A stretch of 64,000 bases of DNA from NCBI GenBank assembly GCA_028818775.1, contig JAPPNE010000052.1, positions 1 through 64,000 of the forward strand, written 5' to 3'. Numbering within the stretch: the stretch's first letter is position 1; every line of letters starts with the position of its first letter. Below are positions 3-62,181 of the stretch, in pieces. Position numbers and translations under genes: made by a program. The notes below the pieces were generated by a model. It saw nothing but the letters and a program-made list of their open reading frames with translations, ran no database searches and was not told the DNA's origin. Source of the stretch: Deltaproteobacteria bacterium. GTDB lineage: Bacteria > Desulfobacterota > Binatia > UBA9968 > JAJDTQ01.

Positions 3-1187
3 GACGAGGTGACGGGCACGTGGCTGTGGTCCCGGAGCGTCAGCATCACCGCCATTGCGGTGGCCCTGCTGTCCCCGTTCCTGGGCGCCCTTGCCGACCG
101 GGGCGGCTACCGCAAGCGCTTCCTCGGGTTCTTCACGCTGGTGGCCGTCCTCGGCTCCACCGTCCTCTACACCGCCATGCCCGGAGAGGTGGTCAAGGCG
201 CTGTTCTGGTTCACGGTGGCCAACATCGCCTTCGAGATGGGCGGGGTCTTCTACAACGCCTTCCTGCCGGACATCGCCCCGCCGGACCGCATCGGGCGCG
301 TGTCGGGCTACGGCTGGGCGTTGGGCTACGTCGGCGGCCTGAGCGCCCTGGGACTGGCGTTGGTGGGCTTCGTCGACACCGAGACGCCCTGGTTCGGCCT
401 CTCGAAGGAAGGCTACCAGCACATCCGCGCCACGAACCTGCTGGTGGCCGGGTGGTTCGCCGTGTTCAGCCTGCCGCTGTTCCTGTGGGTGCGCGAGCGT
501 CCCGCCCGCCGTGGCGCCACGGGCGCGCCGCTCGCGGATTCCGCGCGCCAGCTTGCCCGCACCCTGCGCGAGATCCGCCGCTACCCGGACATCTTCCGCC
601 TGCTCCTCGCCCGCCTGTTCTACGCCGACGGACTCAACACGATCTTCGCCTTCGGCGGCATCTACGCCGCCGGCACCTTCGGCTTCACCTTCGAGGAACT
701 CTTGTTCTTTGGCCTCGTGCTCAACGTGGCCGCGGGCGCCGGCGCCTTCGGCCTGGGTTTCGTGGACGACTGGCTGGGGGGGAAGCGCACCATCCAGATC
801 AGCCTGCTGGGCTTCATCGCGGCCGCCGTGACGGCCTTGCTCACCGGCCGGCGCGCGCTCTTCTGGGCGGCGGGCCTGCTCATCGGCCTGTGCGGCGGCC
901 CCAACCAGGCGGCCAGCCGCTCGCTCATGGGCCGCTTCGTGCCCGAAGACAAGAAGAACGAGTTCTACGGGCTCTTCGCCTTCTCGGGCAAGGCCACGGC
1001 CTTCATGGGGCCCTTCCTGCTGGGGGAACTGACGCGTCTCTTCGCTTCACAGCGCGCCGGCATGGCCGTGGTGCTGGTCTTCTTCGTCATCGGCCTCGCG
1101 CTGATCCACCGGGTCGACGAGGAGAGGGGGAAGCGGGCGGCGGCGGGGAGGGGACGCCCCGCCGCAGAATCGCCAGGGCGGCCTTGA
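3..1187 (+). CDS. MFS transporter, Atg22/UMF1-like (5' partial)
   Basis: The frame is open from the window edge, so the gene probably starts upstream; a GTG at 9 is the first in-window start codon but lies inside what looks like conserved sequence. The product has about ten hydrophobic segments and the MFS signature A-like loop LADRGGYRKR between early helices, with a second half starting near residue 195. Overall it resembles the UMF1/Atg22-like group of permeases, whose bacterial substrates are mostly unknown. The last 101 bp overlap the 3' end of the convergent response regulator gene, so the Arg/Pro-rich tail of this protein is dictated partly by the opposite gene. The MFS call is firm; the substrate is not inferable. 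Confidence 0.8.
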   Translation, partial: DEVTGTWLWSRSVSITAIAVALLSPFLGALADRGGYRKRFLGFFTLVAVLGSTVLYTAMPGEVVKALFWFTVANIAFEMGGVFYNAFLPDIAPPDRIGRVSGYGWALGYVGGLSALGLALVGFVDTETPWFGLSKEGYQHIRATNLLVAGWFAVFSLPLFLWVRERPARRGATGAPLADSARQLARTLREIRRYPDIFRLLLARLFYADGLNTIFAFGGIYAAGTFGFTFEELLFFGLVLNVAAGAGAFGLGFVDDWLGGKRTIQISLLGFIAAAVTALLTGRRALFWAAGLLIGLCGGPNQAASRSLMGRFVPEDKKNEFYGLFAFSGKATAFMGPFLLGELTRLFASQRAGMAVVLVFFVIGLALIHRVDEERGKRAAAGRGRPAAESPGRP

Positions 1188-1818
1188 CCCGGTTGTCCAC
1201 CTTGAGCTTGGCGAAGATACTGCTCACGTGGGCCTTGACGGTACGCTCGCTGATGAAGGTGCGGGCGGCGATCTCGTCGTTGCTTAGCCCCTCGGCCAAG
1301 AGCTTGAGGACCTCCAATTCGCGCTTGGTCAAGCTTTGCAGCCGGTCGCCATCCTCCCGAGGCGGCTCCACGCCGGTGTGGGAGGCAATGACGGCGAAGT
1401 CGGTGGCACCGGGGAGATCCTGGTCGATCCATACGCCGCCAACGTGAATCGTGCGGATCGCCTGGAGCAAGGTTTCCGGCGTCTCGTCCTTCAACATGTA
1501 GCCGCGTGCTCCCGCCTTGGCCGCGTTGAGGATGCTTTCCCTGTCCCCGGAAGCCGTGAGTATCATCGTCTTGTTGTCGGGATGATCCTCTTTCAGTTGC
1601 AGGAGGGTCTGTACGGTTCCGCGGCCGGGCAATTTGAGATCCAGGAGCAGGACGTCCGCATTCCCCTCCGCCACGGCGGGTCCGACTTCCTCCGACCGCG
1701 CAGCCTCCGCGGTCACGAGAAAGTCCCGTTCCTGAGCCAGAATCCTTTTCAGACCCTCTCTGAACAGGTTTTGATCGTCAGCCAGAACAATCTTGATGGA
1801 GTCGGTCACGAAAAACAC
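1087..1818 (-). CDS. NarL/FixJ-family response regulator (orphan)
   Basis: Predicted cytoplasmic DNA-binding regulator of 243 residues. The N-terminal receiver domain (about 7-125) shows the acidic pair D14/D15, phospho-acceptor D60 in LLLDLKLPG, T88 and K110. The C-terminal LuxR helix-turn-helix (about 160-220) contains LTKRELEVLKLLAEG and ISERTVKAHVSSIFAKL. A short Pro/Arg-rich tail follows, encoded in the overlap with the convergent MFS gene. No sensor kinase is adjacent, so it is an orphan in this window. The HTH resembles those of NarL/DosR-type regulators, which bind palindromes of the GGAC-n4-GTCC kind. One such palindrome lies between the two porin genes, but regulation of the porins is only an inference. 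Confidence 0.88.
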   Translation of the reverse strand: MFFVTDSIKIVLADDQNLFREGLKRILAQERDFLVTAEAARSEEVGPAVAEGNADVLLLDLKLPGRGTVQTLLQLKEDHPDNKTMILTASGDRESILNAAKAGARGYMLKDETPETLLQAIRTIHVGGVWIDQDLPGATDFAVIASHTGVEPPREDGDRLQSLTKRELEVLKLLAEGLSNDEIAARTFISERTVKAHVSSIFAKLKVDNRVKAALAILRRGVPSPPPPASPSPRRPGGSARGR

Positions 1819-1945: not shown

Positions 1946-2929
1946 CTATAGAAAGGCGTTCCCGGCGTGGTCGGAGAATGCATCCGCGTCGCGGATATAG
2001 TTCATGACCGTATCCGTGCTGGTGTGGCGGGTCACGGCCATGATCTTGTCGAGGCGTGCGTGGTGCGCCGCGGCGCTGGTGACGAACCCCGCCCGCAACG
2101 AATGCCCGGACAATTCCCTTGGGTCCAGCCCGATCAGCGCACCGTAGCGTTTGACCAGGCGCGGGATGTCCGAATGATGCAGAGGCTTGTCTTGCACGGC
2201 TCCGCCACGTCTCATGGTGCGGAACAAGGGTCCTTGCGTAATGCCCGACACCGAGAGCCACGCCTGCACTCGATCGATGGGCTTGACCGTCTTGCCTTCC
2301 GGGATGGCTATCGTCTGGCCCCTGCCGGTCTGATCCGTCTTGGACCGGCGGATGGTGAGCAACATCCGTCGGGGATGTGGTGGGGTGGATGGGATGATGG
2401 CGACGTCGTCGACATGCAACGCACAGAGTTCGGACCGGCGCAAGGCGCCCGCGAAACCGAGTGCCACGACGGCGGCGTCACGCAAGCCGATCACCGAGTC
2501 GGGGCATCGGGCGATCATGGCGCTGACGTGCCCCTCACGCAGGGCCTTGACCCTTCGCGGTACCGCGCCGGCGAGCCGGCTCAAGCCCTTGAGAGTGGCT
2601 CGGACGGTGGGGTGGTGTGTCGGCGACGGCCTGTTGGCGTCGGCGAATCGTCTGGCGACCGCACTGCTGTAGAGGAAAACCGTGCCCATGGAAAGCGGCA
2701 GGCCGCTTCCGGAACGGGGCCGCGTAGCGCAGTCGAGAAGAAAACGTGCAACCGTTTCGGGGGAGGCGGACAGTGGGTCCGTGACCTGTTCCCTTCTGCA
2801 ATAGTCGGTGAAGCAGGACCAACCCTTGCGGTAGGCCAGTCGCGTGTTGGGCGCAACCGCCGACGACAGGACGAGGTTGTGGATGTCGGATTCGGTGGTC
2901 ATTGCGAGGTCCATTGGATATCGACACAT
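1946..2929 (-). CDS. tyrosine recombinase / phage-type integrase
   Basis: A 327-residue site-specific recombinase. The N-terminal SAM-like core-binding domain covers about 15-120. The catalytic domain keeps the full set: R164 (GALRRSEL), K197 (RRSKTDQ), H276 and R279 (GHSLRAGF), H302 (RHTS) and nucleophile Y311. It therefore looks intact and active. Other in-frame ATG codons at residues 6 and 10 are possible starts. No phage structural genes, excisionase or tRNA attachment site lie nearby, and the closest genes are a response regulator and a porin. It could be a relic of an integrated element, or a recombinase acting on a local invertible segment. Confidence 0.9.
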   Translation of the reverse strand: MCRYPMDLAMTTESDIHNLVLSSAVAPNTRLAYRKGWSCFTDYCRREQVTDPLSASPETVARFLLDCATRPRSGSGLPLSMGTVFLYSSAVARRFADANRPSPTHHPTVRATLKGLSRLAGAVPRRVKALREGHVSAMIARCPDSVIGLRDAAVVALGFAGALRRSELCALHVDDVAIIPSTPPHPRRMLLTIRRSKTDQTGRGQTIAIPEGKTVKPIDRVQAWLSVSGITQGPLFRTMRRGGAVQDKPLHHSDIPRLVKRYGALIGLDPRELSGHSLRAGFVTSAAAHHARLDKIMAVTRHTSTDTVMNYIRDADAFSDHAGNAFL

Positions 2930-3259: not shown

Positions 3260-4630
3260 CTAGAACCGGTACTCGACGATCAAGGTGAAGACGTTGGCGC
3301 TGTTGTCGCCCTCGTCCGCCGTAGCGACCGAGCAGCCTTCATGCTCGCAACTGATGCTGTCCCACACGCCATGGATCTGCATCCAGCCACCCGGGACGTT
3401 ATAGACGACCGCGACGCCGTTGTTGTTGCCTTCCTGACCATTCGAATCGATCTCCGTGACGGAGTACATCGGGGAGACGGAGATTCCGCCTTCCGCCTTG
3501 CTTCCGCCCATCATGCCGCTCTTGGGACCCCACAACCACACTTGCGCGGCGATGCGGACTTCGGAAGCCTTAATGTCGTCGGCCGCGCGTCCGCTGGCGG
3601 CATCGGCTTCGTAGTCAGCCACATGCGCGGAAATGCCGAACCACTTCAGGGGCTGCCAAGTAAGATTGTGGTACGTGTAGGTGTGGTCACCGAACACCGC
3701 GCCACCGTCAACGAAAGTAATGCGCTCTTGTGTGGTCGGACCGTATACCTTACCCGGGCCTTCCCTGAGATCACTCATCGACTCGTACGCGAAATTGTAC
3801 GCCAAGCTCGATACGTTGAAACCGCCCATACCCTTCGCGTTTGCTAGAGGCTTAATGCCGAGACCGAAGGCCATACTACGACCATCGGAACGCCCCCTAC
3901 ATTTGCCGGCTGAGTCGGTACCCATGTGGCACGGTGTCCGGCCGTACTCGTCCTGCTCGTCAATACCCATGGCGAGCGCGAGGTGAGTGATCTTGCTGAT
4001 GCCCATGGCGGGGAGCTTGCCCCAATTCAACACCACGCTACCGTCCTGACCACCTCCCATAGCCAGCGCGTTGATGAACGCCGAGTCCTCTGTGCGGCCA
4101 TAACCCTGGTTCTTGTTACCGTTGAACGAAGGGTTGTAGCCAAATCCAACGGTCGGGAGCCACGGGTTGGTCTTCTCGAAGTGAAGGTACGCGTCACCGT
4201 CGAAGGCCACCGAAGTGTTGCCGCTGAAGGTCCACTTGACCTCGTAGAAGCCCTGCTGCGAGGTCACGTTGATGCTGGGCCGGAAGCGCCGGATCCGGAT
4301 CACGCCATTCTGGAATCCCCCTTCGGGGTCGTCATTGGTCAAATACATGCTGGTGTAGACCTGCAGCCTCTGACCGAAATTGATGCTCCAGTTGTTGTCC
4401 GCCGCGGCGATGGTGAGACCCTTGCCGGCGGAGTACTTGAACGACGGCCCCTTCATCTCGGCCGCGAGAGCACTCTCCTGATTCTGCTTCAGTTGCGCCA
4501 ACTCTCGTTCCAGGGCTTGGATCCTCGTATCCACGTCAGACGCCTGGACCGGCGATGCCGCAAGCACCAACCCTGTCGTTAAAACCAAGGCACTTGCGAA
4601 ACCGAGCGCCTTCTTCAACACGTTATTCAT
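3260..4630 (-). CDS. outer-membrane porin, OprP/OprO-like (porin 1)
   Basis: Predicted beta-barrel porin of 456 residues for diffusion of small solutes across the outer membrane. A signal peptide (MNNVLKKALGF...SPVQA, cleavage near residue 30) is followed by a short heptad-rich coiled coil (about 32-60: DTRIQALERELAQLK) of the type that precedes OprP-like barrels. Alternating hydrophobic/aromatic strands then run to a terminal phenylalanine (VEYRF), the usual BAM recognition end. Two cysteine pairs lie in presumed loops (PCHMG...GKC and SCEHEGC). The first 223 bp, counting 26 bp of leader, match porin 2 at all but one base. A consensus-like ribosome site (AAGGAGGGGG) precedes the ATG. Substrate unknown. 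Confidence 0.82.
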   Translation of the reverse strand: MNNVLKKALGFASALVLTTGLVLAASPVQASDVDTRIQALERELAQLKQNQESALAAEMKGPSFKYSAGKGLTIAAADNNWSINFGQRLQVYTSMYLTNDDPEGGFQNGVIRIRRFRPSINVTSQQGFYEVKWTFSGNTSVAFDGDAYLHFEKTNPWLPTVGFGYNPSFNGNKNQGYGRTEDSAFINALAMGGGQDGSVVLNWGKLPAMGISKITHLALAMGIDEQDEYGRTPCHMGTDSAGKCRGRSDGRSMAFGLGIKPLANAKGMGGFNVSSLAYNFAYESMSDLREGPGKVYGPTTQERITFVDGGAVFGDHTYTYHNLTWQPLKWFGISAHVADYEADAASGRAADDIKASEVRIAAQVWLWGPKSGMMGGSKAEGGISVSPMYSVTEIDSNGQEGNNNGVAVVYNVPGGWMQIHGVWDSISCEHEGCSVATADEGDNSANVFTLIVEYRF

Positions 4631-4656
4631 GACCCCCTCCTTGGTAATCAGAGTTA
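4434..4656 (-). repeat. 223-bp inverted repeat, porin 1 copy
   Basis: Covers 26 bp of leader including the ribosome site, the signal-peptide region, the coiled coil and codons up to FKY of porin 1. It matches the porin 2 copy (4986-5208) in opposite orientation with one difference, AAT against AAC in the third codon. Identity stops sharply on both sides. Confidence 0.95.
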
Positions 4657-5011
4657 CGGTGCCGTTTCGGGCGCTTGTCAGGTACCGGCCGGGAGGGTGG
4701 CAGAAGGAGGATCAGCGTGTTCTTCGGTGGCGTAGCTTCGGATGCCGTGGTACGATGGCGAAAAACGACGGCGCAGATCGAGATTGCTGCGGCCCGTTGT
4801 CTCGTTGACGGGGATGGATGTCAGTAACCAAAAAAAGCACTCGGACTTACCGAAAAATTAGGACCTTAGTCCTGGTTTTTGCCTGATATGCACCGCTACC
4901 GGGCAGAAAACCCTACCTAGGGACAATTGCATGGATACCGTCAAAAAAGTAGAAAGCCTTAAGCAGATTCGCTTGCTGTTGCAGATAACTCTGATTACCA
5001 AGGAGGGGGTC
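4631..5011. other. 381-bp divergent intergenic region between the two porins
   Basis: The unique core (4657-4985) lies between the inverted repeats and must carry the promoters of both porins. It holds a GGAC-CTTA-GTCC palindrome at 4861-4872 and A-rich patches at about 4828-4837 and 4852-4859. An in-frame ATG at 4931 would add 27 residues to porin 2. It is probably not used, because the strong ribosome site and the signal peptide both point to 5012. No clear -35/-10 pair was found, consistent with activator-dependent promoters. Confidence 0.6.
4860..4873. promoter_or_regulatory. palindromic operator candidate (DosR/NarL-box-like)
   Basis: AGGAC-CTTA-GTCCT is a perfect inverted repeat of two 5-bp arms around 4 bp, midway between two divergent porin genes. 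It resembles the GGAC-TWWA-GTCC core bound by DosR-type NarL-family response regulators. With the following T-rich stretch it could instead be a weak RNA hairpin. Confidence 0.35.
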
Positions 5012-5208
5012 ATGAACAACGTGTTGAAGAAGGCGCTCGGTTTCGCAAGTGCCTTGGTTTTAACGACAGGGTTGGTGCTTGCGGCATCGCCGGTCCAGGC
5101 GTCTGACGTGGATACGAGGATCCAAGCCCTGGAACGAGAGTTGGCGCAACTGAAGCAGAATCAGGAGAGTGCTCTCGCGGCCGAGATGAAGGGGCCGTCG
5201 TTCAAGTA
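4986..5208 (+). repeat. 223-bp inverted repeat, porin 2 copy
   Basis: Same unit as 4434-4656, in inverse orientation and 329 bp away, with 222 of 223 bases identical by manual alignment. Identity includes the silent third positions across about 65 codons. Confidence 0.95.
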
Positions 5209-6343
5209 TAAGGCGGGTGGTGGTCTGACGATCGCTGCGGCGGACAACAACTGGAGCATTCGCTTCACGCAGAGGCTGCAGGCCTACTACGCCATCTGGC
5301 TGAGCAACGAGAATCCAGAGGCCGGCTACCAGAACCTGGAGCTTTACGTGCGGCGTTTTCGGCCGACGATCAACGTCACGTCCCAGCAGGGGTTTTACGC
5401 GGTCACATGGCTCCTCAACGATGGTAGCGATGGCACCACCTTCGGCGGCGACGGCTACGTCAACTTCGACAAGTTGAACCCGTGGCTCCCGAGCTTCGGT
5501 TGGGGCCTCAGTCCGTCCTTTAGTGGCAATACGCAAGCAGGCGCTTTCCGTACCGATGACAGCCCGTTTCTGGATACCATGGGCATCGGCGGACAGCAGG
5601 ACGGAAGTTTTGTGCTGTCCTGGAAGAAGTTGCCGGGCATGGGCATTGCCAAGATCAGTCACCTGCAACTGGCGTGGGGGCAGGACAACCAGAGCGAAAC
5701 AAGCGGGGGAGACGACGGCAATAGCGTAGGTTTCGCGCTGGGTCTCAAGCCCCTCGCAGGAGCCAAGGGAATGGGCGGCCTCTCCTTGGCGAGCCTTTCG
5801 TACAGCTTGGGTTACCAAGCACATACCGACACGAATACCGGTGTGGGTGCCAGGACCCGGCAGGGGGCCAGGCCGAGATTGATCAATATCGGCGCGACGA
5901 AGTCCGACACCACGTATGTGTCCCACGGCGTGGGTTGGTCGCCGTTGAAGTGGTTGTCGCTCTCAGCCAATTACGCTACCTTTGAGAGGGAGACGGGCGG
6001 AACCGTTGATGCCGAAGCTTCGGACATTCGGCTTGCGGCACGGGTATGGCTGTGGGGGCCCAAGAGCGGAATGATGGGCGGAAGCAAGAGTGAAGGCGGT
6101 GTCTACATATCTCCGCTCTACAACTTGACCGATATCGACTATGACGGCGGAAACTCCGAGGTGACCAACAGCGGTGTGGCGGTCGTCTACAATGTTCCCG
6201 GCGGTTGGATGCAGGTCCACGGTGTGTGGGATACACTCGGTTGTGAGGGTGCCTGCCCCGGCCAAAACTTCAAGGATGTCGTAACTGAAGATGGCGAAGA
6301 CTCTTACAACGTCTTCTCGATCATCCTTGAGTACAGGTTCTAG
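5012..6343 (+). CDS. outer-membrane porin, OprP/OprO-like (porin 2)
   Basis: A 443-residue paralogue of porin 1. The start at 5012 is chosen because AAGGAGGGGG lies just upstream and the signal peptide begins there; the upstream in-frame ATG at 4931 lacks both. Signal peptide and coiled coil are identical to porin 1. The barrel has diverged but shares blocks such as VWLWGPKSGMMGGSK and VAVVYNVPGGWMQ, and ends LEYRF. One cysteine pair is kept near the C terminus (GCEGAC), in the same place as in porin 1; the second pair of porin 1 is missing. Divergent barrels behind identical export modules suggest two substrate or surface variants. Confidence 0.82.
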   Translation: MNNVLKKALGFASALVLTTGLVLAASPVQASDVDTRIQALERELAQLKQNQESALAAEMKGPSFKYKAGGGLTIAAADNNWSIRFTQRLQAYYAIWLSNENPEAGYQNLELYVRRFRPTINVTSQQGFYAVTWLLNDGSDGTTFGGDGYVNFDKLNPWLPSFGWGLSPSFSGNTQAGAFRTDDSPFLDTMGIGGQQDGSFVLSWKKLPGMGIAKISHLQLAWGQDNQSETSGGDDGNSVGFALGLKPLAGAKGMGGLSLASLSYSLGYQAHTDTNTGVGARTRQGARPRLINIGATKSDTTYVSHGVGWSPLKWLSLSANYATFERETGGTVDAEASDIRLAARVWLWGPKSGMMGGSKSEGGVYISPLYNLTDIDYDGGNSEVTNSGVAVVYNVPGGWMQVHGVWDTLGCEGACPGQNFKDVVTEDGEDSYNVFSIILEYRF

Positions 6344-6405: not shown

Positions 6406-6583
6406 TTGGACGAAAGGGAGACCGGATTCGCTTGACGAACCGCGACAAGTGGAATAGATACTCGCAACGGCGGCATGGGAAGAATCTTGCGGGTTCCGTA
6501 GCATTGGTTCTTATACGTGCCTGTGACTGGCTCGAGACTGGGTTGGGGTACGGTTGGTGAAACAACGGTTCATGGGGGAGCAA

Positions 6584-7246
6584 ATGGCGCGATTCGGGCA
6601 CGTGACTTGGGGACTGCTCGGTGCGGTTGTGGCTTCGAGTATTCTGGTGACGTCCCTTTCGGGCTGTTGGAGACCCGCGGGTATCGGCGTCGGTGGCAAC
6701 TACAACGACGCGTTGCTGGAGTTGGGCAAGACGCAGCGGGGCGGCGACGTCAAGAAGGCCATCGGGCACCTTGAGTATGTGGTCCGCAGGAACCCGCAAT
6801 ACAAGGACAGCCTCACGCAGCTAGGGCGCGCCTACTACTATGCGGGCAGGTACGGCTCGTCCTTCGAAGTGTTGAAACGGGCGCTGGCCCTGAATCGTGA
6901 GGACGAGATCGGCTGGATCGTCCTGGGTTTGACGCAGATGCAGCAGGGCGCCGACGAGGCCGGCCTGGAAAGCTTCAAGGGAGGTCTGACGTTGCTGGCC
7001 AAGGCGACGAAAGAGGGCTACCAGGAAATCCCGGAGGAGTTCTGGGACTCCAGAGGGATCGTGCGCCGCGCCCTCCGGCGAAGCATTTCATTGGCCCGTA
7101 GGGGTGTCGTGGAGAAGCGCCGGATCATTCAGTCGGGTGAACTCTTGCTGCACCGCGTTGACCGTGAACTCTATGACGCCGAGGAGGATCAAAGCCTCAG
7201 CGAGTACCTGGATTCCCGGCGGGACCCGCAGAAGAAGGACAACTAG
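6584..7246 (+). CDS. TPR-containing lipoprotein
   Basis: Starting at the ATG at 6584 (GGGGGAG lies close upstream; ATG 6572 and TTG 6554 are alternatives), the protein has a type II signal sequence with lipobox LSGC at about residue 28. Two or three tetratricopeptide-like helical pairs follow (NPQYKDSLTQLGRAYYYAGRY and ALALNREDEIGWIVLGL), and the C-terminal third is highly charged. It is likely an envelope lipoprotein acting in protein-protein contacts. It follows the terminator of porin 2, so it is probably transcribed separately. I do not recognise a specific function. Confidence 0.75.
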   Translation: MARFGHVTWGLLGAVVASSILVTSLSGCWRPAGIGVGGNYNDALLELGKTQRGGDVKKAIGHLEYVVRRNPQYKDSLTQLGRAYYYAGRYGSSFEVLKRALALNREDEIGWIVLGLTQMQQGADEAGLESFKGGLTLLAKATKEGYQEIPEEFWDSRGIVRRALRRSISLARRGVVEKRRIIQSGELLLHRVDRELYDAEEDQSLSEYLDSRRDPQKKDN

Positions 7247-10855: not shown

Positions 10856-10888
10856 CTCCGCGCCGTCCCGCGCCGGGGCGTACGAATC

Positions 10889-10930
10889 GTCATTCCCGCG
10901 GAAGCGGGATCCAGGGGTGGTGGTGGGGCG
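10889..10930. repeat. REP-like dispersed repeat, copy A
   Basis: Starts GTCATTCCCGCGGAAGCGGG and continues through ATCCAGGGG to a GTGGTGG-rich end. The first part is a small hairpin (CCCGC/GCGGG). A longer relative with the same two ends lies at 38594-38657. It resembles the very common GTCATTCCCGCG...GGGAATCCAG extragenic palindromes of proteobacterial genomes. Confidence 0.7.
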
Positions 10931-61937: not shown

Positions 61938-61948
61938 TGTGGTTTTGC

Positions 61949-62026
61949 TCGGGTGTCGGGTCGGGTCCTCCGGGTGATGGAGGGCGGACCCAACATCACC
62001 CGGAGGACCCGACCCGACACCCGAGG
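61949..62026. repeat. perfect 32-bp inverted repeat (long hairpin)
   Basis: Arms 61949-61980 and 61995-62026 are exact reverse complements around a 14-nt loop. In RNA this would be a very stable 32-bp stem beginning 12 nt after the rpsM stop. No T run follows, so it is not a classical terminator. Confidence 0.95.
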
Positions 62027-62168
62027 AAGTATAAGGGTGGGGTTGAAACCAGAATCACTTGGAGGACCCCCAACCGATACCCGAGGAATTTTAGGGGTAG
62101 GTTGAAACCAGAATTATCCGGAGGGTCTGACCCTATACCCTAGGAATTCTAAGGGTGGGGTGAAACAG
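61995..62168 (+). repeat. 58-60-bp tandem repeat array between rpsM and rpsK
   Basis: The landmark ACCCGAGGAA recurs at 62020, 62080 and (as ACCCTAGGAA) 62138. Each copy continues with an AGGGT-G(A)GG-TTGAAACCAGAAT-type block and a GGAGG(A/G)-type tail. There are two full imperfect copies, a partial third and a preceding tail-only fragment (61995-62019). No reading frame resembling a protein is present. Confidence 0.85.
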
Positions 62169-62181
62169 AACAGGAGCATTC

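Follow-up and report, generated by a model that had tools for sequence, protein, structure and literature searches.

Head-to-head porin genes with inverted, near-identical 5' ends around a single promoter block: a possible inversion switch beside a tyrosine recombinase

Two divergently oriented porin genes, here called L and R, start with the same DNA in opposite orientation in the window (the whole stretch of 64,000 nucleotides analysed), and the question raised by this locus is whether such a layout serves as a switch between two outer-membrane proteins or is the trace of an ordinary duplication. The 223-bp inverted copies with one differing base described in an earlier note were confirmed: the two arms (Table 1) are identical at 222 of 223 positions, and the sole mismatch, 4625 versus 5017, is synonymous, falling at the third position of codon 2 (Asn, AAT/AAC). 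The identity starts with TAACTCTG, 26 bp upstream of both ATGs, and ends abruptly at the third base of Tyr66 (F64-K65-Y66), while gapless extension of the alignment covers 349 bp at 89%. The arm pair is the top-ranking inverted repeat of the window, far above chance expectation, and a whole-genome search found no third copy. Among other repeats, a self-complementary 82-bp short repeat and a tandem-like 120-bp repeat occupy window positions 61945–62170, and short interspersed inverted-repeat elements with an RHSRGSGNPG-like translation occur in intergenic regions genus-wide (10883–10930 in the window, 6416–6600 and 7742–7938 in L042, and several in L039).

Table 1. Features of the porin locus, in positions of the window
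Feature	Position	Strand	Description
NarL/LuxR-type response regulator	1087..1818	-	Adjoins the locus in every relative whose contig covers it
Tyrosine recombinase, candidate invertase	1946..2929	-	327 aa; Pfam PF00589, E 4.8e-13
Porin L (porL)	3260..4630	-	456 aa, intact; promoter facing L not recognised in the assembled orientation
Left arm	4434..4656	-	Leader, signal peptide, coiled coil and first barrel codons of porin L; 222/223 to right arm
Left innermost 20 bp, TAACTCTGATTACCAAGGAG	4637..4656	-	Candidate crossover site in the 5' untranslated leader; putative role
Spacer, predicted invertible segment	4657..4985		329 bp; predicted to invert
Genus-conserved porin promoter block	4842..4977	+	Faces porin R; 51.8 bits, E 3.4e-15; sole match in the 64-kb window
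Core promoter TTGCAT-17-TAGAAA	4927..4955	+	-35 at 4927-4932, -10 at 4950-4955; spacing kept in seven of seven R-position or single porins
Right arm	4986..5208	+	Leader, signal peptide, coiled coil and first barrel codons of porin R
Right innermost 20 bp, TAACTCTGATTACCAAGGAG	4986..5005	+	Same candidate site
Porin R (porR)	5012..6343	+	443 aa; signal peptide, coiled coil, then beta-strands
TPR lipoprotein	6554..7246	+	R-side border of the locus in nine of nine genus genomes

The signal peptide, coiled coil, C-terminal F and beta-rich prediction are consistent with an outer-membrane porin. No Pfam or NCBIfam family scored above threshold, and a PDB sequence search gave no match; a Foldseek search with the low-confidence model of porin R (pLDDT 45) was led by the trimeric OprP/OprO with an E-value of 6e-6, and other porins were also matched. 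Beyond the arms, the barrels of L and R are 54% identical in amino acids and 61% in nucleotides, with pairwise dS near saturation and no converted tract past codon 66 in the window genome. On its own branch porin L has accumulated 45 synonymous and 18 nonsynonymous changes and no stop codon, and in this it resembles single-copy genes. The intact and constrained state of porin L, despite the lack of a recognised promoter, argues for its expression at some time.

The locus was compared in nine genomes of the genus, the window genome (G000) and eight relatives (G001–G008). Where contigs reach, the gene order comprises an MFS transporter, the NarL-type regulator, the porin or porins, the TPR lipoprotein, a nucleotidyltransferase, a phosphotransferase, a nitrilase and an NAD synthetase. 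A single porin stands straight after the regulator, in the position of R, in G003, G004, G005, G007 and G008, while in G000 and G001 a second, opposite porin and a tyrosine recombinase are located between the regulator and this porin. The near-complete relative G001 carries its head-to-head pair within one 4.09-Mb contig, and the inner repeat boundary lies at the same base as in G000. Between the recombinase and the porin of G001 there is an extra gene (L038, 7235–8827, minus strand) for a predicted lipoprotein with weak similarity to the parallel beta-helix/hyaluronate-lyase family. In G006, the contigs on the recombinase side and on the TPR side (the two being L070 and L071) run out in one and the same 55-bp stretch from the 3' end of an R-type porin (...DSFNTFTFVIEYKF*). 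Such a break would be forced on the assembly by an inverted pair whose 3' ends are identical, so that a head-to-head pair can be inferred from the contig ends in G006 as well. The shared 55 bp equal a common assembler k-mer size, and the porin pair between these ends is absent from the bin. The G002 contig breaks at the porin, and its counterpart side was not found. The trait is patchy, and three genomes with a known or inferable pair are a small number. The earlier note's suggestion of a promoter segment bounded by near-exact inverted copies and open to inversion between them is supported; the layout recurs in G001 and is inferable in G006.

The same note had assumed two porin promoters which the inversion would exchange. 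A nucleotide profile (nhmmer) was built solely on sequences upstream of the porin in the five single-porin species, and it matched the spacer once, facing porin R; in the G001 locus it also gave one match (53.6 bits), facing the TPR-side porin. Towards the other copy of each pair (L/a), no promoter block was detected when either spacer was searched alone, even at an E-value threshold of 1000. An exchange of two promoters was rejected, as only one block was found, and a flip would move only that promoter. According to this homology model, the spacer would carry one promoter for the gene set, facing R, and a missing recognisable L promoter is not equivalent to missing transcription of L. The form TTG...-17-TAG.A. 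of the core promoter is common to all seven R-position or single porins; a scan of the spacer for the strict sigma-70 consensus reported nothing, the core promoter included. Two terminator-like hairpins on the minus strand at 4840–4873 (0.4 expected), directed towards the silent porin, overlap the promoter block and could insulate that porin. The spacers of G000 and G001 were assembled in the same orientation, with a local alignment score of 93 versus 23 for the flipped arrangement and at most 28 for shuffled sequences.

The product of the recombinase gene belongs to the Phage_integrase superfamily (49.7 bits versus the Pfam gathering score of 27.1), and the catalytic residues R164, K197, H276-x-x-R279, H302 and Y311 are present. 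It missed the NCBIfam cut-offs for the equivalogs XerA (41.3 versus 220), XerD (30.2 versus 329.6) and XerC (28.3 versus 335). Within the sampled genus, close relatives were found only in G006 (91% aa identity) and G001 (80%), where they occupy the same position, and the gene is absent from the single-porin genomes G003, G004, G005, G007 and G008; it lies next to the locus in exactly the three genomes with a known or inferable pair. The identity of the recombinase at 4-fold sites is 73% between G000 and G006 and 54% between G000 and G001, versus 67% and 68%, respectively, for the MFS gene. Since this divergence is about that of the surrounding genes, the recombinase is a long-standing part of the locus rather than a passing element. 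Its relatives in other families share at most 42% identity, and neither a long inverted repeat nor a porin was found beside two of them (G046 and G043), the G046 sequence ending just past the gene. Alternatively, the recombinase could be no more than a marker of the duplication event.

The innermost 20 bp of the arms, TAACTCTGATTACCAAGGAG, are exact in four copies, two in G000 and two in G001, always as an inverted pair and although the flanks of the two genomes differ. No further occurrence with up to 3 mismatches was found in G000 or G001; at 3 mismatches one additional place was detected, at the single porin of G008, while a reversed control pattern gave none. Part of this conservation is expected anyway because the 20 bp include the ribosome-binding site. 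They also hold the short dyad TAA-CTCTGA-TTA, whose two halves are 6 bp apart (TAA-N6-TTA). This is a shape known for tyrosine recombinase sites, and the dyad could be taken as a lead to the site of the recombinase. Neither the core site nor the porin was found in viral contigs and phage records.

Taken as a switch, the locus would work as follows. In the assembled state the sole promoter would drive porin R; if the two identical, inverted 5' ends recombined, the spacer would flip, turning the promoter to porin L and silencing R. As the crossover would fall within identical sequence, neither protein would be altered by the inversion. The crossover would most likely take place at TAACTCTGATTACC or close to it, within the leader; the most likely enzyme would be the tyrosine recombinase encoded beside porin L, with RecA-dependent recombination across the 223 bp as a fallback route. 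Alleles that circulate within the genus could take the place of the spare barrel, and the switch would offer a choice of outer-membrane pores, plausibly as a defence against phages or host recognition. The best matches of the window belong to MAGs of Candidatus Binatia, and this phylum has been recorded in sponges as well as in other habitats (PMC12181767). We give an even chance to a working single-promoter inversion switch of the vpma/Xer1 kind at this locus. The fuller proposal, in which a dedicated recombinase flips the promoter between porins sharing 66 codons and interspecies barrel exchange behind the fixed 5' anchor further diversifies the surface, is more tentative and falls somewhat short of that.

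The earlier note had seen the stop at FKY before clearly diverged barrels as a sign of a very recent event or ongoing gene conversion, and had proposed a comparison of 5' identity and 3' divergence in related genomes. The stop after Tyr66 is real, and it is not special to the pair: the single-copy porins of G004 and G005 are 92, 95, 95, 83 and 65% identical in successive windows of 20 codons, a profile like that of L versus R (98, 100, 100, 80 and 68%). In the proposed comparison, the first 65 porin codons of G000 are 92–98% identical in nucleotides to those of G004, G005 and G007 (83–97% at 4-fold sites), near the flanking background set by the MFS, nitrilase and NAD synthetase genes (90–96% and 77–90%) and near the genomic background of 92–95%, and the barrels are indeed unlike; the same contrast is seen between single-copy porins. 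Most barrels fall off the background, unlike alleles being 34–54% identical at 4-fold sites. The L porin of G000 resembles the single porins of G008, G005 and G007 (74–86% aa), and R that of G004 (82%). From these alignments, the abrupt change past FKY is a property of the porin alleles of the genus, with a fixed export and coiled-coil part and exchangeable barrels. Since single-copy orthologues of different species also differ in their barrels, the contrast between the 5' part and the barrel needs no conversion inside the pair. Between related species, barrel alleles are far less alike than the surrounding genes, a sign of strong selection, by phages or host recognition, on the exposed portion. 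The single porin of G003 at the same locus (L007/L039) has about 518 aa with long extra loop insertions, which fits fast change in exposed loops. The regulator and TPR genes have mixed histories too; they are unusually diverged or reshuffled between species (the regulator is 67% identical in amino acids to that of G004, versus 93% for the adjacent MFS gene), and the variable zone is wider than the porins.

What does hold of the claim of a recent event concerns the arm: L and R differ at 1 of 223 positions, versus at least 10 of 223 between either of them and any other species (Fisher p of 0.006–0.011 against the nearest species, G005, and smaller against the others), which makes some homogenisation or a recent shared origin inside the genome likely. 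The simplest account of the 5' end of L and R in the window genome is still that it is duplication-derived or homogenised. As a general explanation, conversion limited to the 5' part was rejected because of the single-copy profile and the even divergence in G001, where the two copies are 92–96% identical over the full gene. Because synonymous divergence in G001 is similar in the 5' part (dS 0.15) and the barrel (dS 0.11), such conversion is not a conserved feature. The recombinase-side copy of G001 has 24 nonsynonymous versus 4 synonymous codon changes, compared with 8 versus 7 in the promoter-side copy, and seems relaxed or under diversifying selection. This pattern argues against equal use of both states in the G001 species, and is more easily reconciled with a copy that is largely silent or degenerating than with even use.

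This apparent relaxation also favours an account without any promoter flip, in which the promoterless porin L is a silent store and conversion via the common 5' end or other conserved blocks renews R. The lack of a promoter block at L/a agrees with it, and long conversion tracts occur or have occurred, as the whole-gene similarity of the G001 copies and the identical 3' ends of G006 indicate. However, conversion could proceed without repeats placed in inverted order exactly on either side of the promoter; the G000 barrels, at 61% nucleotide identity, carry no converted tract beyond codon 66; the store would hold a single donor only, and L is constrained. We consider this cassette explanation unlikely, and hold the same opinion of an ordinary inverted duplication, with both porins expressed or differently regulated, the 5' identity derived from duplication or from homologous barrel replacement, and the recombinase a bystander or relic. 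Conservation of the 5' parts between species near the background, the differing barrels of single-copy loci and the single assembled orientation of the spacer are what such a duplication would predict. It accounts less well for the absence of a recognisable promoter for L, for a recombinase that has stayed intact over roughly the time in which the flanking genes diverged, and for the exact inner boundary and core common to G000 and G001.

An inverted pair could also arise by misjoining of two strains, given that the assembly is a draft of 189 contigs and near-exact 223-bp repeats are hard for short reads. Against this stand the identical layout inside the long G001 contig and the expected repeat break in G006, and the spacer is a unique sequence carrying the genus promoter; an artefact is thus very improbable.

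Returning to the inversion switch, several known systems are built in a comparable way. In Dichelobacter nodosus omp1, according to experiments reportedly by Moses et al. in 1995, inversion puts outer-membrane variants with common 5' ends behind a promoter; that system differs from the porin locus in having more gene copies and another protein family. In Campylobacter fetus sapA, Dworkin and Blaser are said to have found in 1997 a promoter between opposite homologues with common 5' regions, but the invertible segment there is 6 kb long, the genes encode S-layer proteins and inversion is mainly RecA-dependent. References to the omp1 and sapA studies are given in PMC5903667 and PMC8493755, respectively. 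In the invertible promoters of Bacteroides capsule and outer-membrane loci, a promoter segment lies between short inverted repeats and is acted upon by site-specific recombinases (PMC4747536); these usually turn one operon ON or OFF, whereas the porin locus would offer a choice between two homologous genes with common 5' ends.

The closest likeness is to the vpma genes of Mycoplasma agalactiae, which have a conserved 5' UTR and signal peptide, a unique promoter and the adjacent Xer1 tyrosine recombinase (PMC2268961, PMC5634654); the proposed crossover lies between -72 and the ATG (PMC2268961). The porin locus has opposite genes with a common leader and signal peptide and a variable remainder, a recombinase of its own and an identical inverted site as candidate crossover. 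The likeness, which extends to vsp/Mbr of M. bovis, comprises the variable remainder, one promoter for the locus, a tyrosine recombinase beside it and a crossover proposed in the leader. The differences are that vpma consists of six lipoprotein genes and the present locus of two beta-barrel porins, that the porin identity runs through 65 codons, that the organism and genes are unrelated, and that inversion is demonstrated for vpma and predicted for the porin locus. If the spacer flips, an uncultured lineage would have a programmed means of selecting one of two general outer-membrane pores, and the layout shared with mycoplasma surface lipoproteins would be a case of convergent design.
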